From NCBI GenBank assembly GCA_027972325.1, contig JAPMOS010000018.1, forward strand, positions 186,001 through 250,000: a stretch of DNA of 64,000 nucleotides, in the 5' to 3' direction. The notes below the pieces were generated by a model, which did not search any database, was not told the DNA's origin, and was given only the letters and a program-made list of their open reading frames with translations. Position 1 is the stretch's first letter; the number at the start of each line of letters is the position of its first letter. Below, one piece after another: positions 1-64,000 of the stretch. Origin of the DNA: Paratrimastix pyriformis. Lineage: Eukaryota; Preaxostyla; Paratrimastigidae. The position numbers and the translations under genes are program-made.

Positions 1-2938
1 AGGACGGCATCGAGGTGGGGGCCACCCAGATGCTCAACCAGTTCGAGCTGCTCCTGCAGAACGGGGCCCTGCTGCGGCAGCGCTTCCAGGCCGAGGTCGA
101 GGGCATGGCCGAGGAGGCGCCCCCCCGGGCCACGGCCCTCGACCTGGCGGCCCCCGTCAAGGCCGCCATGGAGGAGGTCGAGCGGGACCCGGCCGCGGAC
201 CCCATCCAGGCCCGCCTCAACCCGGCCCGGCACCTGGGGGCCGTCTCGGAGAAGTACCAGCGGGCCATCCGCGACTTCCTGGCCAAGAACGCCGCCCGGC
301 CCGAGCTGGACAGCCCCAAGAAGCAGCGGGCCTTCGTCAAGATGCTCTACCGCAAGTACATGCACTGCCTGGCGGCCCCGGGCGAGTCGGTGGGCATCGT
401 GGCGGGCCAGTCGATCGGCGAGCCCTCCACCCAGATGACCCTGAACACCTTCCACCTGGCCGGCCACGGCGAGGAGAACGTCACGCTGGGCATCCCCCGG
501 CTGCGCGAGATCCTGATGACCGCCTCGCGGGACCTCAAGACCCCCTCGATGGTGCTGCCCATCCGGGCCGACCGGGGCACCCCCGGCGCCGAGCTGGTGG
601 CCCACCGGCTGCGCAGGGTCCGCCTGGCGGACGTCCTCGAGGCCGTCGAGATCGTCGAGTGCATCCGCCAGGCCGGCGCCGCAGCCGCCACGGGGCCCGC
701 CGGGGCCGCCAAGAAGAAGACCGCCGTCAGCGGCAGCAACGGGGGCGGCGCCTACCGGGAGGTCACCATCAAGGCCACCGTGCGGCCCATGGAGCACTGC
801 CGCCAGGCCCACGGCATCACCCAGGAGGAGATCCACGCGGCCCTGGTGGACAAGTTCGACCCCATCCTCAGGCGCCAGATCGCCCGCGCCACCCGCAGCA
901 CCCTCGTCCAGATGGGTCCGCCCCACCCCCTCGCCCGGCCCCGCCCGCCCGCCCGCCGCCCGTTGCGCCCTCTTCCTCGCCCGCCTCATCATCTGATTGT
1001 GCCCCCTCCTCGGCCCGTCTCCTCGCACCGTGGCCCTTCTCCCCTCCATCCCACCACCCGGCGGGCAGATATGGGGGTCGCGAAGGCCGTCTCGGACGCC
1101 CCCGCCAAGCGGGCGGGCGGCGAGGATGGCGAGGGCGAGGGCGAGGGCGAGGGCGCCGAGCAGCGCGAGGCCGACGAGGCCGAGGAGTCCGCCGCCCGGC
1201 AGCGGCGGGGCGCCAAGGGGCGCAAGGGGGCCGCCAAGGGGGCCGCCGAGGGCGAGGATGACGAGGCCGAGGACGAGGAGCGGCTCGACGACGAGGTCGA
1301 CGAGGACCAGGCCCGCCAGCCCAAGCAGGAGCTCTCCTCCTACGACGACGGTCCGCCCGCCCCACGCGCCGTTCCCGCCCCACTCGGTGATTGGGAAGAG
1401 GCGTGGCGGAATCTCACCGCCGGCTACTCGGACCCTGGCTGGGGGGCTGTGTCGTCATGGATCGATCGGGGCTGGGGGCTGGGGCTTTGGCCGGGCAGAG
1501 GAGGAGAAGGAGAAGGCCCCCAAGGGCGACGAGTCGGCCAGCGAGAGCGAGAGCGAGGAGGCCGAGGGCCGCCCCGCCCGGGCCGCCGCCAAGAAGGGCC
1601 GGGTCGCCGCCGCCGCCGCCCCGGAGGGCGACGAGGAGGCCGACGAGGCGCAGGAGGGCGAGGAGGACGAGGCGGCCGGGGACGAGGAGGAGCCCGAGGG
1701 CGAGGACCTCGACGAGAGCGAGGCCGACGAGGAGGCCCCCAAGGGCAAGAAGGCCCCCGCCGCCCCCAAGAAGGGCAAGAAGGCCACCGCCGGCTCCAAG
1801 AAGGGCAAGAAGGCCCCCGCCGGCTCCAAGAAGGCCCCCGGCCCGGCCCCGCTGATCATCCGCGGGACGGACGCCGAGCCGCAGCAGTTCGTCTTCCGCT
1901 ACCAGGTGGACATCGGGGCCCAGCGGGTGCTGCTGGACACGCTGGTCGAGAAGGCCGCCAAGAGCGTCCTCGTGCGGGCCACCAAGGGCATCGAGAAGTG
2001 CTTCGTCGTGCCGGCCGACGAGAAGAAGCCCGCCCAGGTGCGCACCGAGGGCATCAACTTCCAGGCCCTGTACACCGACCTGGCCGAGTGCGTCGACCTG
2101 GACCGGGTCGAGAGCAACTCCATCCACCACATGCGCGACACCTACGGCATCGAGGCGGCCCGGGTGACCATCATCAACGAGATCCAGAAGGTCTTCGGCG
2201 TCTACGGTATCGGCGTCGACAGGCGCCACCTCTCCCTCGTCGCCGACTACATGGTCCGCCCCGCCTAGCCCATCCCCCCGCCCCGCCTAGCCCATCCCCC
2301 CCCGCCCCGCCTAGCCCATCCCCCCCCGCCCCGCCAGCCTGCCTGCGTTTCTTCGGCGGTGGATGACACGACGGTGCGCACCTGCTGGCGATGTGACGGT
2401 GGCGGCGGTGGCGGCGGTGGCGGCGGTGGCGGGTGTGGTTGGGCAGTGCTTCACGGGTGCCTTCCGGCCCTTCAACCGGATCGGCATCGACGAATCCACC
2501 TCGCCCTTCACCAAGATGAGCTTCGAGACCACCTTCAAGTTCCTCACCGAGGCGGCCCTCTCCCGCGACTACGACATGCTCCGCTCCCCCTCGGCCACCA
2601 TCGTCATGGGCCGGCCGCCCATGGTGGGCACGGGCTGCGTGGCCCTCAGGCAGCCCCTCCAGGGCCTCCCGCACCAGCAGCCCGAGACGGCCCAGCCCGA
2701 GGGCCAGGGCCAGGAGGAGGAGGGGGCCGCCCCCATGGAGAAGGAGGAGGCGCCCGAGGAGGCGGCCCCAGCCCCGGCCCCAGCCCCGCCGAGGGGGCGC
2801 AAGGAGAAGCCCGCCAAGAAGGCCTCGGCCGTGGCCCCCCAGCCGGACGAGCACAGGCCCCGCAAGCCCCGCGCCAAGGCCGCCGGGCAGGTCCTCGACG
2901 ACGGCCCCCTCCGCGAGACCGACGAGGAGGCCCAGTAG
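1..2938 (+). CDS. POLR1A: RNA polymerase I largest subunit (RPA1/A190), C-terminal part
   Basis: C-terminal third of the largest subunit of RNA polymerase I, which transcribes rRNA in the nucleolus; the 5' part lies left of the window. Exons 1(partial)-915, 1069-1350, 1499-2253, 2447-2938 keep frame, and all three introns begin GTCCGC. The trigger-loop signature [19 protein letters not shown] is near base 410, followed by [10 protein letters not shown]. The Pol I-type end is present ([18 protein letters not shown] near 2110, then [15 protein letters not shown] and the SPSA...MGTGC box after 2490). Between about 1080 and 1860 lies a very acidic, Lys/Ala-rich insertion; yeast A190 carries an acidic DNA-mimicking expander in its jaw, so this may be an enlarged version (inference). 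A charged tail of roughly 90 residues follows the conserved core. Converges on CAPZB. Confidence 0.93.
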
Positions 2939-3228
2939 GGCAGACACGTCCTCCCTCCGGCCCTCCGGACGTCCTTCTTCTCTTCTCTTCCGTCGTCTTC
3001 TCCTCCTCCCCCCCTCCCCCTCCTCCCCGGTGCTCTTCCCCAGGACGTCCCTCGCGCATATTTCTCTGAACCACGCTCCAGAACACGAGATTCACATGGG
3101 TTATTATTCTCGAGGAAGGGCAGAAAGATTACAACATCCCCGGCGAAAAGAGAGATGACAAGGGAAGGGAAGGGAGGGAGTGGGGGAAAAAAGAAAAAGT
3201 GGGGGGTGGGGGGTCGAACGGGGGGCCA
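2939..3228. other. convergent intergenic spacer POLR1A/CAPZB
   Basis: 290 bp between two convergent stop codons. It holds pyrimidine-rich then purine-rich stretches and no open frame with family-like content. It must contain both 3' ends; no polyadenylation signal is recognised with confidence. Confidence 0.6.
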
Positions 3229-4460
3229 TTAACGGGTGCCAACCCGAGCGGCAGCTTGGGCAGCAAGGGAGGCAGGGGTGGCGCCCAGGCCAGCCATGAT
3301 GTTGCGCTGGGCCGCACGACGCCTGTCCGCCTCGGACAGGTCGGCGGAGCTGTGCAAGTACCCAACAATCTCCTTCATCTTCTGGAAGTACAGCGTCTCA
3401 ACGTGCGAGCGGAGACGGGACTCAGTTTCCTCCAGAAGCGAGCCTATCGGAAAAGAAAAAAAGAATGAGCGCAACCGAAGAGACAGGAATGCGGGCAAAA
3501 ACAGGACAGAATTGAGCAGACCCATGTTTTTAATGTGGTCAATGCGACCCTGCGGGGTGTTCGGGGCGTGAGTGATGTAATCATCGCGGACGTTCTAGAA
3601 AAAACAAACATGCACGATGATGAGAAAGGAGGAAGAAGGGTCGATGCAGACTTGGCGAGTAACATTGCCAGAGAGGTTGAGAGACCCCACAGTGAGGGTG
3701 AGCATAATGGTGGTGGTGAGCTTGTATGTGAACAGAGTCCCAGCACTGCCGGGAGCGGGAGAGTTGGTGGAAGGAGTCACCTCGAAAACGTGGATGCTGT
3801 CCCAGCAACCCTTGGTGAGGCCCTTCTGGACGTTATCACATTCTACGTGGGAACATCGAAAAAAAGAGTGAGTCGAGGGATGTCGTGAAGAGACGGAAGG
3901 GCATACCCTTTTTTATCAGAGTGCAAGCGGCGAAGCCATTCTCAGCGGTTGGAAGTGCCCAAACATAGCTGCTCTGAATTCCACCGTTGAAGTAACTATC
4001 AGGCAAAGGATCAAAATGGGCAGAAAGGAAAATTTCACGAATGGTCGTAACGAAAAGAGGCCAGAGAAACTGACAGTTCGCGATAAGTCTCCATGGTGGA
4101 ATGCAGATCCTGCTCGAGCTCGCGCAGGGGGGGAATCGGCTGAGCGCCCTGTCCATCGTTCGTGGGGAAATATTGAGAGGTCCAGGGAGAGCTACATTAC
4201 ATAAATACATGAACGGGAATGATGGCGACAGGGAGGCAAAATACCTACCGATAGCTATCACCGTCGCGATTGAAATCGCTAATCAAGTAGTCTCGGTTCG
4301 CCTGGGTATCCCGCATCACCTTCAAAGGTTGATCGATGGAAGTGAGAAGTTCCTCAGTGCATTCAGGTGCGAGATCCAGAATACCCGAGAGGGTAGCGTC
4401 AATATCCGAAGGAGGCTGACGGCGCATCAGATCGAGAGCAGCATCGACCTTTCCAGACAT
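3229..4460 (-). CDS. CAPZB: F-actin capping protein beta subunit
   Basis: Beta subunit of the CapZ heterodimer, which caps actin barbed ends in the cytosol. Six exons: complement(3229-3443, 3522-3594, 3652-3842, 3907-3995, 4075-4191, 4249-4460), summing to 298 codons plus stop. The start gives MSGKVDAALDLMRRQPPSDI, the family N-terminus. Other family blocks are DQPLKVMRD, DYLISDFNRDGDSYR/SPWTSQY across intron 1, YRELYFNGGIQSSYVWALP across intron 2, KGCWDSIHVFEV, and a C-terminal helix (LLEETESRLRSHVETLYFQK) corresponding to the actin-binding tentacle region. Introns are 57-79 nt; 5' sites read GTAGGT, GTCAGT, GTATGC, GTCTGC, GTCTGC. GC is moderate throughout, unlike the neighbouring POLR1A end. 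Confidence 0.96.
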
Positions 4461-4527
4461 TCTGAACGGAGTGGGTGTGAGAAACCAGGGGCGTACCGAC
4501 TGTATTATTAATAAAAACGCGCGGGGC

Positions 4528-4604: not shown

Positions 4605-4632
4605 GCGGCATCGAGGCTCCTCCCCCTCCCCT

Positions 4633-10450: not shown

Positions 10451-13400
10451 ATGGCTGCTGTTGAAACATCTGATATGGGAGAAATTGAGGATCTTACAAG
10501 GCGAAGGTGGAAATCACTGGGTCTGCAGAAGAACGAGGGGAAAAAAGGGACGTCCAACAGTGCTCACACCAAACCCTGAAACCGGCGGCCTCCTATTCCC
10601 GGGGCTCAACTTCCTGTTCTTATCTCTTCGTCTTTTTTTTGTTGGAACGGCCGTACTCTTCTTCTCCTTCTTTTTGTTGGAATGAACGGCCCGTTTTTAT
10701 CCCTTGAAGAATACGAAGAACAACAAGAGGAACTGGAGCGACGGCAAACATCAAAGCATGTTGGGTCTCCTAAAACTGAGGCCGATTCTCTTCGAAGGAC
10801 AGGTTTCGCGCCACCCGCCGCCGAAAATCAGCCTGCTCCTGTTGTTCATACCACTGTCGAACCATCCGGCGCGACTCCGGAGGCAGTTCCTGCGTTGGAC
10901 AACATGAATCTCTGCCTTGCCTCCTCGCACCCATTCAAGAACTCCGCCATTCAACGGGACGCTTCATCTTCTCCGCCACCTTCCCCCCGACTTCCGCCCA
11001 CCGCTGTTCCTCCGCCATCCCCTCCGGTACCTTCCTCTCCTCCAGCTCCCCGGTGTGTCCCACCCCCCTCGATTCCTCTTCCTCCTCCTGCGTCCACCGG
11101 TGCTGCGGCTTCTCCATTACCCCCAAATTGGCGATGCGGCACCGATGCAGTCCCTCACTCGCACCAAGCCCACGTGCCTGGCCCGATTTTTCCGGATGTC
11201 TCTCCCTCCCCGGCCGATCCCACCCGTCACCCCATCCAGCCTCTGGCCGGGACGGGATCGGGGCGGCCTGGTCTCTCGCGCTCGGCCCCAGTTGCGCCCG
11301 GGGCTTCCCCGTCCCCACCGTGGCCGGTCTCCTCCTCCCCCAGGGCTGCCCACCAGCCATCCACCTCCTCCTTCGTCTCCCCCCGGCTCCGGGCGCCCGC
11401 TCTCGATCCGGCTGCCGTCCCCGCCCCCCAGCTTGTGGTGGCCTCGACTGGGGTGGGGGGCGCCGATGGGACCCCCTTCGGACCGGGCGCCCGGCCCCTT
11501 CGCCTCCTTCCGGGGCCTCTCCTCGTCCAGGCCCCCCCCTCCGGGCCTCCGCCCTCGTCCCCCTCGCCAGCCGCCAGCCCTCCCTCGACACCCATCTCCC
11601 GATCCCGTGCCCCCCCGGCTGCCGGTCGCGCAACGGGTACCCCTCGCGACCGCGCCACCACGCGCCCTTGTCACGGCTCGGTCTCCGGGTCCGCCCACGG
11701 GCCCGCCTCGCCCAGGCTGATCGTGGTGCCCATGTCGGCCCGCTCGCCCCTGGTGGCTGGCGCACCCGCCTCGCCCGCCCTGGGCGGCCGTACCCCGCGG
11801 TCGCCCTACTGCAGCTCGACCCTCTCGTACGCCCGCCGGGCCGCGGCGGTTGCCGCTGCCGAAGAGGCGGCCCACGAGGCGAGCGAAGGGGCAGCCCATG
11901 AGGCGGCCCACGAGGCGAGCGAAGGGGCGGCTCAGCCGACCGCCTTGTGGGCCGGTGGGGGCGATGCCGACGCCGAGGTGCTGGCCGGCCCGCCCTCGAC
12001 GGGCTCTGCCCCTGGCTCCTTGCAGGCCCGCCTTCCCCCGTCCCCCCTGGCCGAGGCCGCCCTCGCCCAGAACCCGCCTCCGCCACCTGTGCAGCAGCAG
12101 CGGGCTCCCTCCTCTTCCCTGGGCCTGGCCCTCCCGGACCCTCGGCGGGACCCTGCCGCCGCCCTTCCCCCCGAAGCGGGCAGCCCTCAGGACGACCCCG
12201 AGCAAAAGGGGCGCCCGGCGAGGGGTGCCGCCGCCCCCGAAGCCCAGGCTGCCCCGCCCCAACACGCCCCCTCGCCCCCCATGCGCCACGCCCCCTCGCC
12301 TCCCATGGCCATCCTCCGCGGGGCGCCCCTCGAGGCCGCGGATCTCTCGCCGACCCGCCCCCAGCACCCCCACCCAACGGCCACCCCAGCGGGCACTCAC
12401 CAGCCGGGGGGGCCTCTCATCCCCCGGCTGGCCTTGGGCGGGCGCCCCTCCACCACCAGCCCGCCCCGCCGGGCGGTCGCCGCCGATGGAGGGGGGGCGG
12501 GTCGCTATCCGGGGTCGCCGCTCCTGGCGGGGGACTCGATGGCCGCCTGCGCCTCGCCCTGCTCCCCGACCGGCCGAGGCCGGCTGCCCCTGCCCCTGCC
12601 CCTGTCGCTGTCCCTGCATGCCAGCGGGCCCGGGGGGGCGGGCTCGCCTCGGGAGGACATCTCGGCCCGCAACCTGCGCCTGCTGGAGGAGATGCGCCGC
12701 CGGGGGTCGCCCATCCCGGGGCCCTGCTCGCCCCGGCAGCCCTCCCCGACCCGGTCGCCCCGGGTGAGCACCCCGCCCGCCTCGCCCCGCCACCCGCCCG
12801 CCCTGCCGCCCGACCCGCCGCCCCTGTGCAGCATGGAGCACCAGTGGATGGCCTCCCTCCGGCAGCCCTCCCCCGCCCGGCCCGGGTCGCCCGCCAGCCC
12901 CCGTGGCGGGGCCGTCTCGCCCGAGCGCTTCCGCCCGGCCCTGGCCGAGTCGTCGCCCCTCGCACGGTGCTCGTCCTCCCCCCTCCGGTTGGAGCCCCTC
13001 GCCGCCCCCGCACCCGCACCCGCACCCGGCCCTGCCCCCGGCCCCGCACCCGGCCCCAAGGACGGACCCCTGGGCGAGGGCTGCGCCAGCCCAAGGCCTC
13101 CCGGCACCGCTGCCACGCGCCACCCGGTGACCCCGCCCCGCCCGCCCGCACCCACTGATCAGGGCGCCGCCGCCGTCCGGGGGGAGCCGTGCCCGGCCTG
13201 GGCACCCTCGTCACCCCCGCCGTCGCCCCTCGCCCACCCGACGGCCCACGGGCGGCCCCTCGCCGCGCCCCGCCCACAGCCCCGCCGCACCCTGACCGCG
13301 GCCTCCTCCTCGCCGCAGTTGCGCCGCCAGCCCCCACCCACCGCCAACCCCCGGCGACCCCTTCCCCAGGCACGTTCGGCCACTCGCCGCGCCACCGCCC

Positions 13401-15733: not shown

Positions 15734-18700
15734 ATGGCCGGCATGACCACGAAAGTCATGCTTAACTTCTCGGAAGTGAAGTCTCAGGGCCAGCAAGCAC
15801 TCCCGCGAATGTCCCATGCGACAGTGGTCATCGATCACACCCTTTTCTTTCTTTTTGGTGAATCTGGGAAGGATAACGACAGGGTGTTCTATAAAGGTCT
15901 TTCCCACGCAGCGATTTCCGGGAGGTTACCAGTGACAATTAGATATCGCTGCTTACAACATTCATACGAACACTTGGAAACATCCCCTTGGAGGTCATAT
16001 GTCCCCTCCTTCGCAGCAAGGAGAGGCGCGCGGAGATCACAGTGCGCTTCTTTTTGGCCGAGATCGCATCACGCTTTTTGGCGGTCGAAACCGCGAACAC
16101 TACTGTCTGCCACCACGAATGTTCCACCTGCAGTTCTTTTTTTGGGCCACATTTTCCCAATAGTCAATGATGTGATGATCTATAAATTCGAGAACGAAGA
16201 TTCAATCACACCGATGCGAGTTGAATGCAGCGGTGTTCTCCCACCTCCACGGCGAGGACACTGTGCGGCCAACATCGGGAATGAGAAAATGTCTGTTTCT
16301 GGCACGCATGAAAGGTTTTATCACACGCTCATCATGTGTCTTGGCCCACCGGGAACAAACGAACGATGATTTAGGCTCATCTACGGTGGACAGGGGGAAA
16401 ACGGGGACTTGTTAGGCGATACATTCATCTTGGATATGGAATCGCAAAAGTGGATGCGGGTTGGACCTCCCAGCACCAGCAGCGCACCCCTCCTGCCGGT
16501 TCGCCTGCCGCACCGGCACCGCGCGTGTTCCAGGGGTGCACTGACACATCTGGGTGTGTCCTGATCTACGGCGGGAGAGGCCTCTCGGTGGTCCACAGCG
16601 ATCTGTGGATGTTCGACCCTCGTCTGTTGGCTATCCCCCCCTGTCTATTAAACGTCCACCACACCAGGCTCTGAGCAATGGATGCTGTTGGAGATGGTTG
16701 GACCGAACCCGGGCCCCCGTTTGGGGCAGTCCATGAGCCTTGTCGGCCCAGATTCATCGGCCATCCTGATGTGGGGCGGTTGCAACGAGAACTACGACTA
16801 CTGCAACCTGGGCTTCGTCTTCGACGGCCGTCCGTCGTCGTTCCTCCTGATCAACTCAACATGACCCCCACGCATGCACACACACACACACGGCAGGAAA
16901 TCGCCATTGGAGCCGGGCGGACATGGGGGGCACATACCCGTGCCCGCGCAGCTTCCACAAGGCCTCCCTGGTCGACAACAACATGTGGATCTTCGGCGGC
17001 TGGTCGGGTCTGCCACGGGACGCTCGCGCCCTGCTCACCCACAGTGCTTCCGCCAGGCTACCGGACATGTACGGGCCTCTGGAAGGCTTCCCTCACCACC
17101 GCCAACGTGCCCCAGTCCGAGGCGGACCGAGAGCTGCAGGTCCCTGCCGAGTTCACGTCGGCCTCGACGGGCGACCCCACATCGTCGACCTACCTGGTGG
17201 CCAAGCCTCTCGAGCCCATCGCCAACCGGCTGCGAGCTCTGCGCACTTCGGGTTTCACGGCAACGGTCCGTCGTTGCCCCCATTTTCCCCCCTCCCATCT
17301 GACCCTGCTTCTTTCGCCATCTCCAGGCTCATGTCGTCTCCTGCGAGTTGCCACTCAATGTACGCCTGCACGGCCTGGGCGAAACCCACATTCTCAAAGT
17401 CACCCCCTCGGAGTTCCCGGGTGCTTTTCAGGTCTGGCACGCGCACCCGCTCGATCTCGACCTCTTACCCGCCGTCTCACCATTGCATTGGCATCGCATC
17501 CTCTGCCGATTCGCAGAGGGTCTCGGAAGGAGGCCCCGACGACCTCGCTCCCTCAGCAGACCGTCTGTCGGCTTGATCTGCATGCGTCTGAATGCCACTT
17601 TTCCCGGCCTCCCGCAGTGGTCCCGGTTGCGCTGCCGCCCGAAGACATCACCTTGCTGGACACCCTCATCGGGAACCTGCTCGACCCGGACTGGGAGGCC
17701 TACTGCCCCACCGTCCCCGAGTTGGACCGGGTCTGGCCGTCGACACCCCGCCCCTCCGATCTCACCCCGTCCTTGTCGCAGCTGATTGCCCTGGCGACGG
17801 CCATCTTCAGCAACGAGCCGAGCCTGCTGCAGGTGGACCTGCCCGTCAAGATCTTCGGCGACATCCACGGCCAGATGCAGGACCTGCGCAAGTTCTTCTC
17901 CCTCTGCGGCAACCCCGTCACCGACGTCTGCCAGTACTGCTTCCTCGGTCCGCCAGCCCCTTCCGGCCCCGCCCCGTCATAGCCGCTCAACGATCCTAGG
18001 CGACTATGTGGACAGGGGCCCAAACTCCGTTGCCGTCATCACGCTCCTGTTCGCCCTCAAGGTGCGCTACCGCTACCGCTTCTTCCTCCTCCGCGGTCCG
18101 CTCCTGTGCCTCGCCCGCCCCTCGCCCCCCCTCGCCCCTCATCACCACTCTCACTCTCGACTCCGCTCGGCTCTGCCCCCAGGCAACCACGAAACCGAGA
18201 ACACCAATGCCGAGTATGGGTTCCGGGAGGAGTGTGAGGCCCTCTTTGGCCCCCAGGGGGAGCACGTCTGGACAGGATTCAACCGGGCCTTCGCCTACCT
18301 GCCCCCGGCCGCCCTGGTGGGGCACCAGGTCTTCTGCGTCCACGGGGGCCTCACCCCGGACCTCGACCTCAAGGCCATCTACCTGATGCGGCGCCCCTGC
18401 AAGGGGGACCGTCTGTTTGCTTGGCCCTTGCCCGTTGCCCCCGACTCACCGCCTCGGGCCCTCCAGCGATCTCCCAGCCGATGCTGTACGACATGATGTG
18501 GTCCGACCCGGCCCTGCGCGAGGACGACCCCATCGAATACAAGCCCAACACACGGTCTGGAGACCTTTTTGCGGCGCTGAGGTCATACATTTGCCAACAG
18601 CGGGGGCGGGCACGAGTTCAACCGGCTGGCGGTGGAGAAGTTCGTGCAGAAGAACGGGCTGAAGATGGTCGTCCGGGGCCACGAGGTGGCCGAGGAGGGC

Positions 18701-19145
18701 TTCTTCCGGTTCGCGGGGGACAAGATGCTGACCGTCTTCTCGGCCACCAACTACGGCGGCATCAAGAACAAGGGCGCCATGCTGCTCCTCGACGAGCACC
18801 TCACGGCCACCCTCGAGGTCCGCACCACCACCACCACTACCGCCACCACCGATGCCTCCCCGTCCTTTCCCCCTTCAGGTGATCAAGCCGGGATTGCCAC
18901 CCACGCCGTCGCTCCCACCCATCCACCGCCACCCCTCGACGGCCCGCCCGTCGGACGGGGCGCTCCCCGACGCCACCTTCTCACCCATGCTGAGCAAGCC
19001 GCGCCCTCCGACCCCGCCCCGACAGCGGCTCGCTCCGCTTCGGATCCCTTCATCGCCCTTGCCCTCGGCCCCGCCCCAGCAAACGGGCTCGCCGCCCCTG
19101 GTCCCCGCTCGGCCCGTGTTCAACTTTGCCAGCCTCAGAAAGTGA
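15734..19145 (+). CDS. kelch-repeat PP1-type protein phosphatase (PPKL), copy 1
   Basis: N-terminal kelch beta-propeller fused to a PP1-like Ser/Thr phosphatase, the PPKL/BSU1 architecture of plants and protists. I place 16 exons from 15734 to 19145; 14 of 15 introns begin GTC[CT]G. Kelch blades: [54 protein letters not shown] and [18 protein letters not shown]. Phosphatase motifs: [18 protein letters not shown] (across an intron), HGGLTPD, RGHE, and SATNYGG where PP1 has SAPNY. The C-terminus ends VFNFASLRK. Exon 4 has a one-base frame discrepancy near 16487 in a C run: SSAPLLP here against [15 protein letters not shown] in copy 2, and the exon sum is one base short of a codon multiple. GC rises strongly 5' to 3'. 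Confidence 0.9.
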
Positions 19146-45126: not shown

Positions 45127-48100
45127 GGAGGGGGACCCCGGGTGCAGCCGGGCCGGGGGCATCGTCGGGGTGGCCGGGAAGTCGGGCTTGATCACCTGCC
45201 AAGTGGCGACGACCCAGCAGCCAGAGCCGGTCGGGGCGATCAGAGGGGGCGCGCGCGGCGGGGATGGGCGTGGGCGGGTGGTGGTAGTGGTAGTAGTAGT
45301 GGTGGTAGTGGTAGTGGTAGTGGTAGTGGTAGTGGTGGTGGTGCGGACCTCGAGGGTGGCCGTGAGGTGCTCGTCGAGGAGCAGCATGGCGCCCTTGTTC
45401 TTGATGCCGCCGTAGTTGGTGGCCGAGAAGACGGTCAGCATCTTGTCCCCCGCGAACCGGAAGAAGCCCTCCTCGGCCACCTCGTGGCCCCGGACGACCA
45501 TCTTCAGCCCGTTCTTCTGCACGAACTTCTCCACCGCCAGCCGGTTGAACTCGTGCCCGCCCCCGCTGCCGCGCCCCCGCCCCCGCCCCCGCCCCGCCCC
45601 GCCCGCACCAGGAGGGAGAGCCGAATGCCGAACGCACATCAGCACGATGGTGGTGATGGCCAGCCACCTCGGCGCATCAGCGATGATGGGTGTGCGTGCG
45701 GACCGGGGGTTGGGCTTGTACTCGGCCGGGTCGTCCTCCCGGACGGCCGGGTCGGACCACATCATGTCGTACAGCAGCGGCTGCGAGTCGGCTGCACAGA
45801 CAGAGACAGACAGACAGAGGGACAGACAGACAGACAGACACGGACGGACGGACAGGCGGACAGGCAGACAGACCACGGACGGACGGACGGACAGGACCCG
45901 GGCAGCAGGACCCGTACCCATCCCATCAGCCCATCGGCCACCATCCCCGAGATGAGCACATGGCCACGGTCAGAGACACGTCCATGGGGGGTCATGGGCA
46001 GGGGCAAGGGGATCATGGCCATGGGGGGTCATGGGCAGGGGCAAGGGGAGCAGCGGGGGCGGCGGACCGTCGCCCTTGCATGGGCGCCTGATGACGTAGA
46101 TGCTCTTCAGGTCGAGCTGGGGCGAGAGGCCCCCGTGCACGCAGAAGACCTGGTGGCCCACCAGGGCGGCCGGGGCCATGTAGGTGAAGGCCCGGTTGAA
46201 GGCGCTCCAGACGTGCTCCCCGCCCGGCCCCCCGAAAAGCTCGTCGCCTGCCCGCAGCCCCCCGCGCAGCCCCCCGCGCAGCCAGCCCATCCATCGCATC
46301 GCATCATCGCATCACCCCATCGGCCGCCCAGGGGGCCCACCCGCCATCAGGGCGGGCCATTCACGATTCACGACGGGACACCACAGGGGGCGGGGCGGGC
46401 GGGGCGGGGCGCGGACACTCGGCCCTGAAGCCATACTCCATGTTGGTGGCCTCGGTCTCGTGGTTCCCTGCCCGCCCCCAATCCACCAGCCCCCCAGCCC
46501 GCAGCCCGCATGGGTCCACCAGACCACCCGTCAGCATCGGCGGCGCCAGCAACCACCCACGGGCGCGGGAGCATAGGAGGAGCGGGCGGGGTGGGCAGCG
46601 GGCAGCGGGCGGGGCGGGCAGCGGGCGGGGTGGGCAGCGGGCGGGGCGGGCAGCGGGCGGGGCGGGCAGCGGGCGGGGGGGCGGGGCGGACCGCGGAGGA
46701 GGTGGAAGCGGGACCGGTAGCGCACCTTGAGGGCGAACAGGAGGGTGATCACGGGCACCGAGTTTCGGCCCCGGTCCACGTAATCCCCTGCCCGCAGCCC
46801 ACACCGTGCCCGTAAGTGGGTGACGTCGTGAGGCCGTGCCCATGCGGATTGGCGATACGTGGGGCGACCATGGCGGGGCGGGGCCGGAAGGGGGGGCTGG
46901 CGGACCGAGGAAGCAGTACTGGCAGACGTCGGTGACGGGGTTGCCGCAGAGGGAGAAGAACTTGCGCAGGTCTTGCATCTGGCCGTGGATGTCGCCGAAG
47001 ATCTTGACGGGCAGGTCCACCTGCAGCAGGCTCGGCTCGTTGCTGAAGATGGCCGTCGCCAGGGCAATCAGCTGCCGCCGGGCACACCGACCCGCCACCG
47101 ACGAGCCATCCGACCCATCCCATGACCGTGACCCATCCATGAGCCATCCGACCCATCCTGTGAACCATGATCTGTGACCCACCATGACCCATGAGCCGTG
47201 ACGCAGGCCGGGGGGAAGGGGGGTCTCTTGGGTGGGGCGGCAGACCCTGTCCAGCTCGGGGATGGTGGGGCAGTAGGACTCCCACGAGGCGGCCAGGTAG
47301 TTGTTGATCATCCGGTCGAGCATGGCCTCCTCGTCGGGTTGCAGGGGCGCTGCAGACAACGCCGCCACCCAGAGGAAGAGGAAGAGGAAGAGGAGGCCCC
47401 GTCAGCACAATACGCCAGGGGCCAGGGGCCAGGGGCCAGGGGCCAGGGCGGGCGGGCGGGCGGGCGGGCGGGCGGGCGGGCGGGCGGGCGGGCGGGCGGG
47501 CGGGCGGTGCGGACCCACGCTGGGCGGCGGAGCGGGAAGGGACGCCGGGTCGGGGACGGCGTCCTCGGGGCCTGGGACGATCCGCTGGAAGGCCTGCGGG
47601 AAGGCCGTCGGGGTGGCGTTGAGGATGTGGGTCTCGCCCGGCCCGTGCAGCCGCACGTGGATGGGCAGCTCGTTGGTGCGGTGGTAGGCCTGCACGCCCA
47701 CCCGCCCACCGGCCAACCCGCCCACCGGCCAACCCGCCCACCGGCCAACCCGCCCACCGGCCAACCCGCCCACCGGCCAACCCGCCACCGGCCAACCCCG
47801 CCACGACGCCCGAGATGAGACCCCACCGTGAGCCAAGGGCAGCATGGGCGGCGGCGCGGGGCGGCGGGGCGATGGGGACGGCGTTTGGCGGCGGGTGTGG
47901 GTGTGGGTGTGGGTGTGGGTGTGGGTGTGGGTGTGGGTGTGGGTGGGTGTGGGGGCGGCAGGGACGGGGCCGGGGGCCGGACGGTTGCGGTGAAGCCGCT
48001 GGTGCGGAGGGCGCGGAGGCGCTCGCCGGGGGGCTCGTTGGCCTTCTCGACGACGTAGGTCAGGGCCGAGGGGTCCCCCGAGCCCGACGAGAAGGCCCCC

Positions 48101-48538
48101 GCGGGGTGCTGGTGCAGCTCCTCCCCGGCCGCCTCCACGGGCGAGTCCACCAGCTGCAGGCCCGCCTTCCACAGGCCCGTGCAGGTCCGGTAGCCTGGAG
48201 GGGGTGCCGGTGGGGGTTGCGGTTGGTCATCGGGGGACCGCGCGGGGCGGGGCAGGGCAGGGCGGGCAAGTGGGCCCAAGGGGGCGGGCGGGCGGGCGGG
48301 TTGGCCGACGGACCCGACCAGCCGCCGAAGACCCAGAGGTTGTCGTCGACCAGGGAGGCCTTGTGGAAGCTGCGCGGGCACGGGTAGCTGCCCATCATGT
48401 CCGCCCGGCTCCACCGGCGCGTCCCTGCGGCCCCAGCCATCGGCACATCACGTGCCACCCCGCCCCGGCCAACGGAGGAGAAGACGCCATCAGCCACGGC
48501 TCGCGCCCATCGCAGAGGCGCCGCCAGAGGGGCCTGCA

Positions 48539-48578
<40 letters not shown>

Positions 48579-50002
48579 CGGGGAGGCGGCGGACGGACGG
48601 CCGTCGAAGACGAAGCCCAGGTTGCAGTAGTCGTAGTTCTCGTTGCAGCCGCCCCACATCAGGATGGCCGACCCGTCGGGGCCGACCAGGGTCATCGAGT
48701 GGCCCAGCCGGGGGCCCGGGTGCGGGCCCTCCATCTCAAGCTGCATCCACTGCTCCGACCCTGCCCGCCCCAACCCGGCCGCCCAGGTCCCCGCCATGCG
48801 CCATCCGACCCGGCCAACGACCGACCGCCCCAATCCGACAATGAGCCCACGACCGACCGCCCCAACCCGACAATGAGCCTACCGCCCCAAGCCAACGACC
48901 GACCGCCCCGATGAGCCAACGACTCCGAACGCACGACCAGCAAGCACATGAACGCAGGCCCAGAGCAGTCCCTTCATCACCATCCTTGCACGTGCCGCCC
49001 GAAGGTGTGTGTGTGGGGGGGGGGGGGGGGGGGGGGGGGGACGGACGCTGGTCGAACATCCACAGGTCGGGGTGCACCTGGGTCAGGCCGCGCCCCCCGT
49101 GGACCAGCACGCAGCCCGAGTTGTCTGTCATGCAGCCGTGGAAGACCCGGGGCGCGGGGGCGGGTGGCGAGCCTGCGGGCGGGGGCGCGCTGCTGCTGTT
49201 GGGCGGGCCGACCCGCATCCAGCGCTGGGTCTCCATGTCCAGGATATGCGTGTCCCCGTACAGGTCCCCGTTGGCCCCCTGGCCGCCGAAGATCAGCCTG
49301 CAAAGGGGCAAGGAAACTGCCAAGTGAGCAAAGCAATCCGGGGATGGGGATGGGAAGGGGATGATGGGGATGTCCATCCCGGAGGGGGCGTCCTGTGGGC
49401 GGAAGCGGCGGACATCTTCTCGTTGCCGATGTTGGCGGCCGAGTGGCCGCGGCGCGTTGGGGGCAGAGTCCCGGTGCACTCCATCTGGATGGGCGTGAGG
49501 TTCTCGTCGTCCTCGTATTGGTAAATCAGCACGTCGTTGACTGGCGGCAGTGGCGGAGGCAACACCGGGTCACGGAAAACTCAGGCACAAATCTACAGAC
49601 AATAGCGTTCGCGGTTGCGCCCGCCGAAAAGAGTGATCTTATCCTTGCCGAAGAGGAGAGCACTGTGATCGCCACGAGATTGCATGCCAATCGCGTGTGC
49701 GGGAGAAAGAGGGCCCCCAACAGGTCTCGTCCAAGTGTTAGTAACAGTGTTGTATGCACAAATGTCTGACGATGAAATGGAGGCGGAGTAGCAAAAGAAC
49801 AGATGAGGAAAAACGAATGCTCGTCATTCATGTCGGGGAAAAGACCTTTGTAAAAAATGCGATCGTTATCCTTACCCGACTCTCCGAAGAGATAGAAGAT
49901 TGTGTGATCAACAGTCACACTGGCGTGTGACATCCGAGGCATCGCTTGAGGCCCTTGAGACTTAACCTCGGTAAAATTCAAAACAATTTTCCTTGAACTC
50001 AT
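44576..50002 (-). CDS. kelch-repeat PP1-type protein phosphatase (PPKL), copy 2
   Basis: Inverted paralogue of the gene at 15734-19145, with the same domain order and largely the same intron positions but longer satellite-filled introns. N-terminus [19 protein letters not shown], kelch pieces [55 protein letters not shown] and [18 protein letters not shown]. Phosphatase motifs [29 protein letters not shown] and SATNYGG; end PTFSFGSRK. No frame problem is seen in the part matching copy 1 exon 4 ([19 protein letters not shown]). Exons encoding [13 protein letters not shown]...CFLG and FNRLAVEKF...TATLE are nearly nucleotide-identical to copy 1, while the kelch half is clearly diverged. Introns hold poly-C tracts (48541-48578 and 49018-49040 on the plus strand as G), CAGA units (about 45796-45845) and a CCACTA-type array (45277-45342). 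Exons were not all delimited. Confidence 0.88.
48541..48578. repeat. 38-base poly-G (coding-strand poly-C)
   Basis: Longest homopolymer of the window, inside a PPKL copy 2 intron whose 5' site reads GTCCGT. The length may be unstable or imprecisely assembled. Confidence 0.9.
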
Positions 50003-55560: not shown

Positions 55561-55570
55561 CCGGCGAAAC

Positions 55571-55614: not shown

Positions 55615-56562
55615 TGCTTTGAGGGAGCCGCCGCGAACGCCCGAGGCGGCCCCGGAGGTCCCAATCCACCCGCCAACCGGACGGGTCCCCAAGTTTTACC
55701 CACTGTTGCGGCGGCGGCAGCAGCCCAACCAGGCGATCAGGCGATCGACCGCAACCACTTGCTGAATTTCCGCGACCAAGAAGAACATTTCACATCCCAA
55801 ACCACTGTGGAGCTTCCACAACTTGACGGTGTGTCTTTTTCAAGAGGAACCTTTCCCAACTGAACATCTGACCCGGCATTAAATGTCGACTGATGATCTT
55901 CGACGACCCCGTCTGTCTTCCTTCCGTCACAAATCCTCTTATTCCCAAATGTCCACGCACAGTATCTCCACGAGCCGGGGTTGACGCTGGCGCAGCCATG
56001 CATCCTGCGAGCGCACAACGGTTTTCCTGGTCCGGTGGGTCCCTCACCCGGCTCGGTGAGGTGTGGCAGAGGGAGGGGGTCCGCACAAGTTGGTTGGGTG
56101 GCTTCAATTGATGGTCCCCAACAGTTCCCTGGACATTGTGGGCGCCCCAGAGGAGAACCCAGTGCACACTGGGCAGAATTTCTGCGGCCCCCCCGGATCG
56201 GGGACCCCGTCTCCGCCCCGGATAAGGCGACGAGTTCTGCGGGCGGGATGCCAGTTCTTGCCCCCACCTCGGACTCTGGTGCTCCTGTCGATTCATGGTG
56301 GGAGGAATCCCCCTGGGGGCACCTGCCCCTCCGCGGCGCTTTCACTTCGCGTTTTGCTGCCCTGCCGTGCCCCCACTGCCCACCCTGCTCCGCTGACAGT
56401 GTCCCGCCCCCACCTCTCCATGGGGCGTCGCACACTGCCTCCCCTTGGTTGCGGGCCGCCTGTTGCCCTGTTCCAGGCGCCATGACCGCCTCCATGCCGG
56501 GGGGGTTGCCTTTCTCCGACCCTGCTTGCCTGCCGTTTCCTCCCCGACCTTGACGTCGCGTC

Positions 56563-58704
56563 GTGATTTTTGTATGTTTCGACTTAACTCGTCGAGTTAC
56601 AAGAGATCCGCCTGCTATTTGTTGCGTTCCGCTGTCACTTGGGCAAGTTGGGCAACACTTGGAGCACCGGGGTCGCGGGTTCAATCCCGGTCAGACCCAC
56701 ACGCCGTACCTGGGCTCTACATTCCGGAATATGGAGGATAAAAACCATCCGACCCTGCACTCGCGGGGACAGGACACCGGAGAGCCGCGCTCTGGCTCGG
56801 TTAGTCGGCCTCGAGCCGGCAAGACAGCTCAAATATCGGGAAGTCCTCATCCGAGGATGGGCCGACGCGCCAGAAATGGCGGCGTGAGAGATGAGAGCGG
56901 CTGTCGGTCGGGGTTCCCCCACCCCCGGCTTAAGGTTTCACCGAAAGTTCCCAAAGCTCAGGCGCCAGGAGGGCGACCTGGGCTTACTTTCGTCCAGGCG
57001 CGCGGATGTCGAGGCTGTCTCCTCCAACTCTTCCAGGCAATGTACGCTCGGACGGAGGCAGCTGTGGTCGTGCATGGGCAGCGGGGCCCGATCTTCGAAG
57101 TCCACAGGGGCCTCAGGCAAGGTTGTCCGGCCTCCCCGGGGCTTTATCTCTTCTTCATCGACGCCTTGATGCATCAGCTCCGGGCGCGTGGCTGCGGGGT
57201 CGAGGTGCCCGGCCGAGGGGGGCGCATCCCGGGGCTGCTGTTCGCGGACGACGCCACGGTCCTGGGCGACTCCAGAGAGGGTCTGCAGCGGGCCCTGGAC
57301 GAGTGCGACCAACTGGGGCTGGAGAGGCGTTTTGAGTGGTCGCCGGAGAAGTGCCGCGTCATGCTCTTCCGCTCCTGGGCCGACCAGCGCAAGGCCAAGC
57401 CCGTGGGTGAGAAATGGTCGGTACAACTGTCCGGCAAGGAGCTGGAACAGACCGAGGTCTTTCGCTTCCTGGGCGCGGAACTCGAGAGCGACGCTGGCAC
57501 AAAGACCCACTCCAGTGGCCGGATCCGGGCGGCCTGTGCAGCGAGGAGCTCCATCAGCCGGCTCCTGGGGCGTGTCGGGCCCCTCCCCCCGAGAATGCTC
57601 GCTGCACTGTGGCGCACCTTCGGCTTGCCGAGGCTGCTTTGGGCGGCGGCGGCCTTCCCCAACCTGCGCGATCGACAAGCAGAACGAGCCATGGACACGG
57701 TTCAGCGCATTTTCGCCTGCAACGCGCACCAGTGCATGAACCAGGCCTCCTCAGCTGCAGTCGAGGCGGACCTGGGTCTGATGCCAGTCGCGGCCCTGCG
57801 GGCCCAGGAGACCATGATCGAGTGGGGCCGCATCAAGCTGCTGCCGAAAGGCCGCCTCGTCCGAGAGCTGGTGGAACTGGGCGAGAAGCTCCCGAGGGTG
57901 CGGGGGGGGCACCAATGCATCGGTGAATGGACTGGCGCGGCTGAGGCGGTCCTGAAGGACTATGGCCTGGGCAGAGGCGAGCGTCCCGACGACGAGGCCA
58001 TCCGGACCACCGGCATCGCTGCCTGGAAGGACCTGGTCCGGAAGAAGGTGCGCGCACACGTGGAGGCCCAGTGGCGCGCCAAAATGGAAGACACCCGCTC
58101 GCGCCCGAGGCTGGCACTCCTGCGGCAGGTCAAGCAGGACTTTGCCCACAGCGAGGCCTACCTGGACGACATGTGCCCTGCGGGGCGCCGCATCGCGGCC
58201 CAGCTGCGCGCAGGAATGTACCTCGACGGTGAGTTCCTCCGCACCTGGAAGTCCAGACCTGCTGAGGTGAAGCGCGGTGGGGCCTGCATCTGCTGCAGCG
58301 ACGCGGGGCCCCTCGAGGACGCCCAGCACATCATCCAGCAGTGCCCGGCGTACGAGGGCCTGCGGAAGAATGCTTGGGACCGCATCCATGCCATCCTGGG
58401 GGCCCCCGACTGGGCCCGACTGGAGGCCCTGGGCGGTGACAGGTGGCAGATCATGATCGGGAGGCCGGCTGCGGGATGGGGCCGCCTGACCAAGGAGGCC
58501 GTTAACAGGATCGCGGGGGACTTCCTGGCCCAGGTCCACGCGCTTCGCCTCCAGCTGCTCCGAGAGAGGGGGGCCGAGCCGCCGCGGGTGGCCGGAGAGC
58601 GCGCGCCCCGGCGTCAGGCAACTTCATGGCCGAGCCGAAGACGGCTGCCTGCTGTGCCCATCCAGCAGACTAGCGGCCACCACAACGAGGCCTCCACTAC
58701 ATAA
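56563..58704 (+). CDS. LINE-type reverse transcriptase ORF, 5'-incomplete
   Basis: 713-codon open frame. The convincing part starts near 57000: YARTEAAVVVHGQ, GLRQGCPASPGLYLFFIDAL (RT motif region), GLLFADDATVLGDS (catalytic FADD box near 57238-57270), then KCRVMLF, LGAELES and a long C-terminal region ending in CICCSDAGPLEDAQHIIQQ (about 58286-58342), the Cys/His knuckle typical of non-LTR elements before their end. No endonuclease domain and no N-terminal RT motifs are seen, so this copy is 5'-truncated or rearranged. The first 140 or so codons are probably not original coding sequence. Confidence 0.8.
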   Translation: MIFVCFDLTRRVTRDPPAICCVPLSLGQVGQHLEHRGRGFNPGQTHTPYLGSTFRNMEDKNHPTLHSRGQDTGEPRSGSVSRPRAGKTAQISGSPHPRMGRRARNGGVRDESGCRSGFPHPRLKVSPKVPKAQAPGGRPGLTFVQARGCRGCLLQLFQAMYARTEAAVVVHGQRGPIFEVHRGLRQGCPASPGLYLFFIDALMHQLRARGCGVEVPGRGGRIPGLLFADDATVLGDSREGLQRALDECDQLGLERRFEWSPEKCRVMLFRSWADQRKAKPVGEKWSVQLSGKELEQTEVFRFLGAELESDAGTKTHSSGRIRAACAARSSISRLLGRVGPLPPRMLAALWRTFGLPRLLWAAAAFPNLRDRQAERAMDTVQRIFACNAHQCMNQASSAAVEADLGLMPVAALRAQETMIEWGRIKLLPKGRLVRELVELGEKLPRVRGGHQCIGEWTGAAEAVLKDYGLGRGERPDDEAIRTTGIAAWKDLVRKKVRAHVEAQWRAKMEDTRSRPRLALLRQVKQDFAHSEAYLDDMCPAGRRIAAQLRAGMYLDGEFLRTWKSRPAEVKRGGACICCSDAGPLEDAQHIIQQCPAYEGLRKNAWDRIHAILGAPDWARLEALGGDRWQIMIGRPAAGWGRLTKEAVNRIAGDFLAQVHALRLQLLRERGAEPPRVAGERAPRRQATSWPSRRRLPAVPIQQTSGHHNEASTT
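56645..56705 (+). pseudogene. tRNA-like sequence (A- and B-box-like), degenerate
   Basis: Contains GGGTTCAATCC, a B box/T-loop, with an A-box-like TGGGCAAGTTGG about 30 bp before it. Acceptor and T stems do not pair properly, so not a functional tRNA. It may be an internal Pol III promoter remnant of a SINE-like unit. Confidence 0.4.
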
Positions 58705-61357: not shown

Positions 61358-61447
61358 CGGAGGCTGGCGCTGCGCGCAAACTTGGACTTGACACGGTGCG
61401 GTCCATACCTCCCCTGGTCTCCTCGACTGTGTCACAGCGTCATCGCG
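61358..61447. promoter_or_regulatory. bidirectional promoter TMX-like/UFSP2
   Basis: 90 bp between divergent start codons; moderate GC, no element recognised. Confidence 0.5.
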
Positions 61448-63599
61448 ATGACCTCCCTCGTTCTGGGAGCCACCGCACTGCGCAGTTTGCGCGAAGCCCC
61501 AAAACAGACCTTTTTTCTCGTCGGGGGACGTTACTCTGGAAAAATTCGATTGTTTTCAGTGCCCCGGATTTTCACGCATGACGGTCATTGGGAATTTCGC
61601 AAGCTTCAGGAGATCCTCCCATTCGGCCTGGAAATTCTGGGGTTCCACTGTGACGCAGCAGCTTTGACGACGATTCAGCCTCTGTTGATGTCGAATTTTT
61701 CGTCTCCAAATGGCCTCATCATCGGTACGACGCTCGTGGAAGGTGAGGAAATGGCCATCGAATTTCGGGAGCAAGGTAAAGAGGCTCCTTTAGATGCCAC
61801 CCTTGAAACTGATCTTCAGCTCGTGGCCGATCTGATGTTCCTCCGCGTCCAGGCTCCCTCATCCGTCTTCGAAGGCCGAACCGGGCCTGTCCCCGACCTG
61901 GCCCTCTCCTTTGGGGGGCGGCTGGTCGCTGCCGACATGGCCGCTGCCACAATGGGCACCATTTTCCGAGGCAACTTCCCCCCGGGGATCTCCTCCACCC
62001 CCGCCCCCATCTATTCGGCCTCTCTGGTGCTGGTCGCATCGCCTGCGCCTGTGGGGACGCCCTCCCCGATGGTCTTGACCAAGCTCGGGGCCTCTGGGTC
62101 CCCGTATCTGATGGACGTGCTTGTAGTGGCGTCCCGCGACGCCCTTTGCACGGACCTGCTGGGCGTCGTCCAGGGGGCCCTGCTCCGGCAGGCCCAGCCC
62201 CACCCGGGCCCCTCCCCGGCTGCTGCGGGTGTGTCCCACTACTGGCCCCCGGCCCTGGCGCACCCGGTCACCTTGCCGGGGGAAGCCCAGCCCCTGGCCG
62301 ATCTGCCCCCGGAGTGGGCCGACCAGGTCGACTCGGGCCTGGCCGCCACCCCGAGCCTGGCCCTGCGCTGGCGCAGCCTGCACCACCGCCTCCTGGGGCT
62401 GCCCGCGCGGCCCTTCCTCCGCCCCGGCCAAGCGCTCCCGCTGCCCAGCGGCGGGGCCGGCACAGCGGTGGGGTCCCTCCACTCCAAGCAGGCCCTTCTG
62501 CTCGGCTCGGCGCCCACAGAAGCGTCTCCCACGGCCACCCGAGGTCTGCCAACCCGGAGCGGCCTGCCTCGCCTGCTCCCCATCCACCTCCTCCCCTCCC
62601 GATCATCCGAACCCTTCCTTCTCACCTTCACCCCGGCATCCGATCGCGGTCGGATGGTGGGAGCAGGCCCGGCCGAGCCGCTGTGGAACGTGCACCTGGC
62701 CATCCCCGCGGCCCGGACACCCCAGGAGCCCTACGAGCTGCACACCGTCTTCGGCAACTACCAGGTCCGCGCCCCGTCCAGCGGCCGCCCCCTCCCTCCC
62801 TCACCCTCCCCACCCCCACCCCCACCCCACCCCGCCCACGCCCACCGGCACCTCTTCCTTCTCCCGCCCCGGCCATGGCAGTACTGCCACTACGGCCAGG
62901 AGCTGGACGACTCGGGCTGGGGGTGCGCCTACCGGTCGCTGCAGACCCTGGTCAGCTGGTTTCGGCTGCAGGGCTACACGGGCCGGCCCAACCCGACCCA
63001 CCGCCAGATCCAGGAGGCCCTGGTGGCCATGAACGACAAGCCGGCCGGCTTCGGCCAGGGCCGCCAGCCCTGGATCGGCAGCTTCGAGGTGGGCCTCGTC
63101 CTGGAGCACTGGCTCGAGCAGCCCCCAGGCCAGCAGCCCGCCGGGGGTCTGGCGGCCCCCCCGCCTCCTCGACGTTTGGCCTGCCTCCGCCGCCAGGGGC
63201 ACACAGCCTTCTCACCCCATGCGGCGCTCTCCCCTCCCCCTCCCCACCTCTCCCCTCTCAGAGGATCCTGCGGGGTTCTTCCCGCCCGCGCGGATCATCC
63301 CGCTGGCCTCGGGGGCCGAGTTCGACGCCCACGTGGACGAGCTGGCCGAGCACTTCGACCGGACGGGCACCCCGGTCATGGTCGGGGGCGGCGTACTGGC
63401 CTACACCCTGCTGGGGGTGGCCCTCGACCGGGTCAGCCACCAGGCGCCGCGGTACCTCATCCTGGACCCGCACTACACCGGGGCCGACCGGGTCGAGGCC
63501 ATCGTGGCCAAGGGGTGGGTCGCCTGGCACCCGATGAGCCTCTTCCGGACCGACGTCCACTACAACCTCTGCCTGCCCCAGTGCCCCGCCTGCATCTAG
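61448..63599 (+). CDS. UFSP2: UFM1-specific protease 2
   Basis: Cys protease that matures UFM1 and removes it from ER/ribosome substrates. Exons 61448-62543, 62667-62764, 62882-63173, 63262-63599, 607 aa. The C-terminal C78 peptidase domain is highly conserved: [20 protein letters not shown] with catalytic Cys, [66 protein letters not shown] (Asp/His of the catalytic triad), end [12 protein letters not shown]. Two introns (123 and 117 nt) are multiples of three and open, so they could be read through. 5' sites GTCTGC, GTCCGC, GTTTGG. The N-terminal 300 residues follow the poorly conserved UFSP2 N-domain. GC rises along the gene. Implies an active UFMylation pathway. Confidence 0.95.
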
Positions 63600-63709
63600 C
63601 GGCCCCCCCGGCCCCCCGGCCCTCCCCAAGAGTACTGTGACTCGCTATGCCGGGATGCGGGTCTTCCAAGAGGGGAGGGGGGAGGGCAGAGAATAAAAAA
63701 ACAGCCAGC

Positions 63710-63765
63710 GGTTCGGTTCGGTTCGGTTCGGTTCGGTTCGGTTCGGTTCGGTTCGGTTCGGTTCG
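63710..63765 (+). repeat. GGTTC pentanucleotide array
   Basis: About 11 perfect GGTTC units in the convergent spacer (63600-63876) between UFSP2 and the last gene. AC-free and G/T-rich on one strand, but internal to the sequence and unlike any telomere repeat I know. Confidence 0.95.
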
Positions 63766-63876
63766 TTCGAGGAGCCTTCCGCCTTCTCGGACGGCCCGCA
63801 GGATGGGGAAGATTGGAAGGCCGCAAGGAAGGCCGGGGCCGTGGGGGGTGGGTGGGCCGTGGGCCGGGTGGGCCGC

Positions 63877-64000
63877 TCAGAGGACCTCCTTCTTGAGGGC
63901 CTGGGCCATCTTGGCCAGGGCCCGGGCGGCCGCGTCGGCCCGGCGGAAGCACATGACCCCACCGGCCATCAGGGCGGCCACGGTGCGATCGTACTTGGCG
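63877..64000 (-). CDS. C-terminal end of an unidentified gene
   Basis: Open on the minus strand into the window edge; the visible C-terminus is helical and basic (FRRADAAARALAKMAQALKK, stop at 63877-63879) with a Gly/Met-rich hydrophobic stretch (TVAALMAGGVMC) before it. GC is very high, as expected for a 3' gene end here. Family not recognised. Confidence 0.55.
   Translation of the reverse strand, partial: AKYDRTVAALMAGGVMCFRRADAAARALAKMAQALKKEVL

Follow-up and report, generated by a model that had tools for sequence, protein, structure and literature searches.

5' splice sites of the form GTYYG and a matching change in the U1 snRNA of Paratrimastix pyriformis

How are introns recognised when their 5' ends depart from the familiar GTRAGT? 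The question is raised by a 64,000-nucleotide stretch of the genome of Paratrimastix pyriformis, a free-living metamonad (Preaxostyla), which we refer to as the window (contig JAPMOS010000018.1, positions 186,001 to 250,000 of the forward strand; assembly GCA_027972325.1). A preliminary description of the window had proposed about 80 introns, most of them beginning GTC[CT]G, and had suggested that U1 and/or U6 small nuclear RNA (snRNA) had co-evolved with them. In canonical U1, positions 5 and 6 are both U (pseudouridines in model organisms) and lie opposite A at +4 and a purine at +3 of the intron. Here, by placing introns within and beyond the window and searching the 56.06-Mb assembly (495 contigs), we confirm that the GTYYG pattern is real and extends outside the window, and find support for a corresponding change in U1. 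It is, in our judgement, very likely that these are major-class (U2-type) introns in which the 5' splice-site code and U1 snRNA have been rewritten jointly.

Introns were placed using a spliced aligner that requires GT...AG, leaving non-GT donors invisible, and that ignores positions +3 to +6; the margin of a donor is the alignment score lost when that donor is forbidden. Outside the window, 18 introns were obtained by aligning Prp8 to plant-type relatives (~77% identity) and 57 by aligning seven CCT subunits to solved CCT chains. The donors of 69 of these 75 exceeded the next-best donor by 10 score units, and the six with margins below 10 were excluded. Seven further junctions, all GTC, are supported by a transcript-derived protein (EukProt P0243, with the transcript-style accession GAFH01000748.1), which is identical to the genome at 550 of 550 aligned residues of a locus on contig C1 (L078); an eighth intron proposed there (GTGTGC) was discarded because the assembly is without part of that exon. 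The missing part, at ~1897-2030 of the locus (reverse complement), is present in P0243 and is missing from the deposited protein P0241 as well. Introns in the window were regarded as secure if the donor margin was at least 10 and the junction was identical after local re-alignment, which gave 23. The pool therefore comprised 105 introns, 99 of which, from 12 genes, were kept. For the 30 introns of L078, PPKL and POLR1A, margins were measured in alignments separate from those of Prp8 and CCT, and intron GC was taken over ~90 nt past the donor. Two roughly aligned loci stand outside all counts: CCT-theta (L066), left uncounted because no solved structure was returned at the E-value limit set, and the HSP60-like L071.

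Within the 99 confident introns, the nucleotide at +3 is C in 88 cases, T in 9 and A in 2, and is never G; +4 is C in 52, T in 44, G in 2 and A in 1, +5 is G in 93, and +6 is C in 44, T in 43, G in 9 and A in 3. The 75 Prp8 and CCT introns, all from outside the window, give similar figures (+3: C63 T10 A2 G0; +4: T38 C33 G3 A1; +5: G69; +6: T39 C27 G6 A3), with G at -1 in 60, a pyrimidine at -3 in 72 and mostly pyrimidines upstream; their phases 0, 1 and 2 number 41, 22 and 12. GTYYG is found at 65 of these 75 donors (87%) as compared with 33 of 398 other GTs within 60 nt (8%; Fisher p=5e-44), and G at +3, present in 34% of background GTs, in 0 of the 99 donors. In 11 genes of the 12, C is the commonest +3 nucleotide; CCT-delta differs (T4, C3, A1), and GTTTG starts 5 of its 9 introns found. 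The resulting consensus is G/GT(C>>T)(C=T)G(T=C), where the slash marks the exon-intron boundary, with GTTTGT as a minority form in lower-GC introns. The GTC[CT]G first proposed was thus real but slightly too narrow, GTYYGY being the better fit. A purine at +3, which the preliminary description had named as the observation that would count against it, occurs in only 2 of the 99, and A at +4 in one, so that these introns depart from GTRAGT, a frequent feature of U2-type introns rather than a definition of their class. Extrapolating from this sample, the GTYYG pattern probably holds genome-wide.

Relative to background, C is favoured over T at +3 (p=4e-9) and pyrimidines over purines at +4 (p=1e-17). 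Whether C or T is used at +3, +4 and +6 tracks intron GC (p about 0.002), which suggests that, where reading is loose, the pyrimidine is set by mutation bias. Counted as raw hexamers, GTYYGY occurs 289 times in the window, a figure that none of 100 shuffles attained (247 +/- 15). This is a weak signal alone, and it is the placed introns that carry the evidence.

The Rfam U1 model (RF00003) matched eight loci on eight contigs, at 50.8-60.2 bits (best E 3.7e-13) and across model positions 1-166. The 5' end is ATACAGACCTTG in all eight, in place of ATACTTACCTGG; where the RF00003 5' end is ACUUACCUG, all eight loci have ACAGACCUUG. Compared with the Rfam consensus AUACUUACCUGG, U5 and U6 are replaced by A and G, and G11 by U, with G at 12. 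As encoded, the mature U1 would start AUACAGACCUUG, with A5 and G6. These two positions oppose +4 and +3, and the encoded U1 is complementary to CAAG/GUCUGUAU, its predicted full pairing partner. When positions 5 and 6 were left open, the search returned the same eight loci and no others. The presence of a second, canonical U1 was rejected, a pattern made up of ATACTTACCT and, after it, the U1 loop GATCA having given 0 matches. Over their first 50 nt, all 28 pairs of loci show 100% identity, while the 3' flanks average 26% and CCATAA is found upstream of all eight (at -58/-59); these are therefore dispersed genes kept identical. CCATAA looks like a proximal snRNA promoter element; it is present also at -57 to -59 in the 8 U2 loci read, and all 4 U6 loci have it at -65/-66. 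TCAAG is additionally seen at -30/-31 in 6 of 8 U1 and 5 of 8 U2 loci.

The altered U1 pairs well with the sites observed. Mean duplex energy over the 99 sites is -8.6 kcal/mol for the organism's own U1 and -4.3 for the canonical sequence, and its own U1 pairs better at 94 sites and worse at 5. At 483 nearby non-site GTs used as a control, the means are -4.2 and -3.0, and its own U1 pairs better at 336 but less well at 139. Since the own U1 is also better at non-sites, its higher GC accounts for part of the gain; it does not, however, explain the 4.3 kcal gap at real sites. In a fixed register from -4 to +8, the own U1 scores 8.0 of 12 at sites and the canonical U1 6.4, as against 5.6 and 5.8 at non-sites.

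The other RNAs that read the intron are unchanged. U6 (96.7 bits) has ACAGAGA in all 4 loci found, so a change in U6 as the counterpart was rejected; of the two snRNAs suspected at the outset, U1 has changed and U6 has not. Likewise, altered branch recognition by U2 was rejected, as GUAGUA is kept in all 8 U2 loci read. Despite this, the branch motif CTRAY shows no enrichment: 11 of the 75 Prp8 and CCT introns have it within their last 60 nt, and 10.9 are expected from shuffles.

On this basis, a mechanism can be proposed in which G6 of U1 would select C at +3 and, less often, U by wobble, while A5 would oppose U or C at +4, which would fit the exclusion of purines there. The remaining helix would be canonical (C4-G5, A7-U2, C8-G1 and C9-G-1). 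Once U1 departs, the unchanged ACA of U6 may take U/C-G-U/C at +4 to +6. Because this ACA can already pair with UGU at these positions, U6 needed no change. We infer that pairing with U1 is the selective cause of the new consensus and that the hand-over to U6 is conventional.

Several observations weigh against this account. Although A5 should favour U, +4 shows no preference between C and T relative to background (p=0.40), and +6, opposite A3 of U1, is likewise indifferent (p=0.17). When all 16 dinucleotides were placed at U1 positions 5 and 6, the real AG came second by mean pairing energy and GG first. All eight U1 matches fall under the Rfam curated cut-off of 69.5 bits, so that a search at this threshold reports no U1 here; and, since the best candidates were scored (41 of 992 for U1 and 47 of 1903 for U6), further copies of either could exist. 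Finally, unlike the +4U Saccharomycotina, the genome appears to retain both a METTL16-family gene (C332:38824-39682; PF05971, 64.5 bits), assigned by a model that covers METTL16 together with bacterial relatives and matches E. coli too, and a predicted SNRNP27K (C9:25886-25972; PF08648 (SNRNP27), 34.7 bits). Both scores are over the family cut-offs, and the two genes have NPPF and RQYMNRKG stretches. Loss of METTL16 and SNRNP27K as the cause, which would be expected from the association seen in yeasts, was rejected, as both are present.

Since C is as welcome as U at +4 and +6, pairing with U1 leaves the choice of pyrimidine unexplained. The plainest account of this indifference is a tolerance of A-C pairs common to the U1 and U6 helices. 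Another would be that U1 A5 is deaminated to inosine, a base that accepts both C and U and would make U1 a tRNA-like wobble reader of +4. This would fit the equal use of C and U there, but is less simple than A-C tolerance or contact with U6, because +6, opposite A3, is equally indifferent; we consider it unlikely.

It could also be argued that the change in U1 is incidental, the code being set at the U6/U5 stage or by a protein such as U1C or Prp8, and merely tolerated by U1. The lack of preference for U among the pyrimidines at +4 and +6 looks as if it were set by another contact. A zinc finger of U1C is present (L061 1501-1608), and the loop that we take, from alignment by eye, to be the equivalent of human L13-T14-H15 differs, reading I-D-D. 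In human systems, the site of cleavage can be determined by U6 instead of U1 (PMC11732430). Against this, U6 is unchanged, and yet the most altered position is +3, where the C of 88 of the 99 introns is exactly complementary to G6 and the strong bias of C over T is as a G reader predicts. We know of no ordinary pairing of U6 with +3. An incidental change in U1 seems to us unlikely, and a joint change of site and U1 remains the reading that we prefer.

It is very improbable that the pattern arises artefactually, from the base composition of a GC-rich, C-rich genome or from placement by eye. The introns are indeed C-rich (37% C), GTYYGY occurs often by chance in the window, the C/T choice follows intron GC, and the own U1 outperforms the canonical one even at most non-site GTs. 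However, placement was blind to +3 to +6, the great majority of Prp8 and CCT donors lead by 10 units, and the window and transcript-backed introns that were kept are secure; local GTs differ sharply from donors both in GTYYG and in G at +3; and a transcript-derived protein yields the same consensus, with U1 altered at the matching positions.

Just as improbable is an origin other than U2-type, whether as minor-class introns or as mobile introner-type elements with a common end, since U1, U2 and U6 snRNAs were all found, along with a Prp8 that in draft is ~77% identical to plant Prp8, and since the minor-class 5' site, RTATCCTT, is unlike GTYYGY and was not seen among the donor hexamers of the 99 (U11 and U12 snRNAs were not searched for). 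What might favour introners is that three CCT-eta introns have a common core of 134-156 nt at 93-95% identity. This core is interior, away from the intron ends, and box C/D-like by eye, and the 75 Prp8 and CCT introns give 26 non-self matches to one another, made up of the eta trio, matches of 15-45 nt among Prp8 and CCT introns and longer matches (98-148 nt, 70-83%) in which the CCT-zeta intron at 3275 takes part. An introner origin was rejected on these intron-against-intron matches. The core of the CCT-eta introns (L069; 3077-3341, 3489-3742 and 3884-4122), with its TGATGA-like start and CTGA-like stretches, suggests a triplicated, intron-hosted box C/D RNA, although Rfam gave no match there. 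The CCT-zeta intron (L067 3275-3735) and the Prp8 intron that it matches (10552-10884 of the joined L072/L073) consist largely of short-unit repeats of the CATCAT/CCATCA type.

How does this system compare with those already known? The canonical U1 helix (AUACUUACCUG with CAG/GURAGU) has the same register and the same contacts at positions 3, 4 and 7-10, and belongs to the same RNA family, all 166 model positions of RF00003 being aligned; here, positions 5-6 are AG rather than UU, position 11 is U rather than G, and the consensus is GUYYGY. In humans, U1 snRNAs whose 5' end differs come from variant genes or from laboratory engineering. In these, too, an altered 5' end redirects pairing, whereas in P. 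pyriformis every U1 locus found is altered and the sampled introns match. The GUAUGU (+4U) sites of Saccharomycotina resemble those described here in having a pyrimidine at +4 with U6 ACAGA unchanged. According to Parker et al., this +4U preference accompanies loss of METTL16 and SNRNP27K, and U1, found in 236 of 240 species (230 yeasts and 10 outgroups), has an invariant ACUUACC (PMC10581693). The yeasts differ from P. pyriformis both in U1, which is altered here, and in the two genes, which are present here. The same source notes that +4U could be compensated if A replaced the pseudouridine at position 5 of U1, a change that was sought and not found in the yeasts and outgroups (PMC10581693); the change considered there is half of the one seen here. 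The 5' splice sites of Entamoeba, GUUUGUU, also have pyrimidines at +3 and +4 and G at +5, and GTTTGT is a minority form here. In Entamoeba, U1 snRNA is reported absent (PMC6085484, citing Davila Lopez 2008), so that we know of no matching change in its U1, whereas P. pyriformis has U1 at the eight loci found and C at most +3 positions. The intron and splice passages of the P. pyriformis genome paper do not describe splice-site sequences (PMC10703272). In line with the earlier remark that no described lineage was known to have this consensus, we found no report of a GTYYG consensus or of an A5 G6 U1 in an open-access library that takes in neither most subscription papers nor bioRxiv.

The 5' end of U1 is very strongly conserved, and the code by which it reads 5' splice sites, among the most conserved in eukaryotes, seems here to have changed both in the introns and in U1. 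If the 99 introns are typical, the genome represents a natural compensatory-mutation experiment, in which the code proves rewritable across a genome and the requirements of U1 separable from those of U6. It is also a +4-pyrimidine genome that seems to retain a METTL16-family gene. Genes of this kind will escape annotation and snRNA searches that are tuned to canonical motifs, and the U1 reported missing from Entamoeba might be similarly altered.

Within the window, the secure introns (those of Table 1 other than POLR1A 916 and 1351) begin with GTC in 23 of 23 cases. The claim that donors of PPKL copy 1 (15.9-18.9 kb, + strand) are nearly all GTC was borne out by 11 of 11 secure introns out of 18 proposed against P0241, the ~80 introns originally claimed for the window having been re-placed in part. 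PPKL copy 2 (45.6-49.6 kb, - strand) likewise gave 11 secure introns, all GTC, out of 16 proposed. Seven insecure introns were discarded from copy 1 (GTGAGG, GTTCGC, GTCGTC, GTCTCA, GTCTGT, GTCGCT and GTTCAA) and five from copy 2 (GTCGTC, GTCCCT, GTCCGC, GTCCGC and GTGGCT), among them the GTCCGC donor at 45348, which has a margin of 14 and an unstable acceptor. As to the three introns first proposed in POLR1A, the last could be placed by means of P0095, which alone of 120 homologues scores >150 on this part; the first two were left unresolved by homology, both of their donors falling in an acidic, poorly conserved stretch. Three further introns proposed by P0095 (GTCGAG, GTGCCC and GTTCCC), with margins of 0 and spanning this same stretch, were discarded.

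Table 1 Introns of POLR1A and the two PPKL copies in the window (positions count from the first nucleotide of the window).
Gene	Intron sequence	Position	Strand	Support
POLR1A	GTCCGC	916..1075	+	unresolved by homology; donor chosen by P0060 (1 of 12 homologues listed); acceptor by eye
POLR1A	GTCCGC	1351..1499	+	unresolved by homology; donor chosen by P0011 and P0004 (2 of 12 homologues listed); acceptor by eye
POLR1A	GTCCGC...GGGCAG	2254..2446	+	best-scoring homologue P0095, margin 40
PPKL copy 1	GTCTTT	15897..15942	+	spliced alignment to P0241/P0242, margin 28
PPKL copy 1	GTCTGC	16105..16163	+	margin 29
PPKL copy 1	GTCTGT	16291..16374	+	margin 24
PPKL copy 1	GTCTGT	16622..16667	+	margin 49
PPKL copy 1	GTCCGT	16830..16896	+	margin 28
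PPKL copy 1	GTCTGC	17008..17056	+	margin 64
PPKL copy 1	GTCTGG	17731..17781	+	margin 15
PPKL copy 1	GTCCGC	17948..17999	+	margin 24
PPKL copy 1	GTCCGC	18096..18182	+	margin 27
PPKL copy 1	GTCTGG	18555..18600	+	margin 59
PPKL copy 1	GTCCGC	18818..18878	+	margin 10 (P0241), 7 (P0242)
PPKL copy 2	GTCTGT	49541..49600	-	margin 23
PPKL copy 2	GTCCGC	49298..49413	-	margin 64
PPKL copy 2	GTCCGT	48761..49046	-	margin 16
PPKL copy 2	GTCCGT	48425..48598	-	margin 20
PPKL copy 2	GTCCGT	48195..48313	-	margin 35
PPKL copy 2	GTCTGC	47072..47245	-	margin 28
PPKL copy 2	GTCCGC	46788..46905	-	margin 45
PPKL copy 2	GTCCGC	46468..46691	-	margin 44
PPKL copy 2	GTCCGC	46248..46416	-	margin 17
PPKL copy 2	GTCCGC	45792..46067	-	margin 24
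PPKL copy 2	GTCCGC	45566..45703	-	margin 28

Elsewhere in the window, an open frame of 716 codons at 56554-58704 (+ strand) resembles, by eye, a LINE-type reverse transcriptase, and the GC content is strongly mosaic, 4-kb blocks ranging from 0.566 to 0.791.

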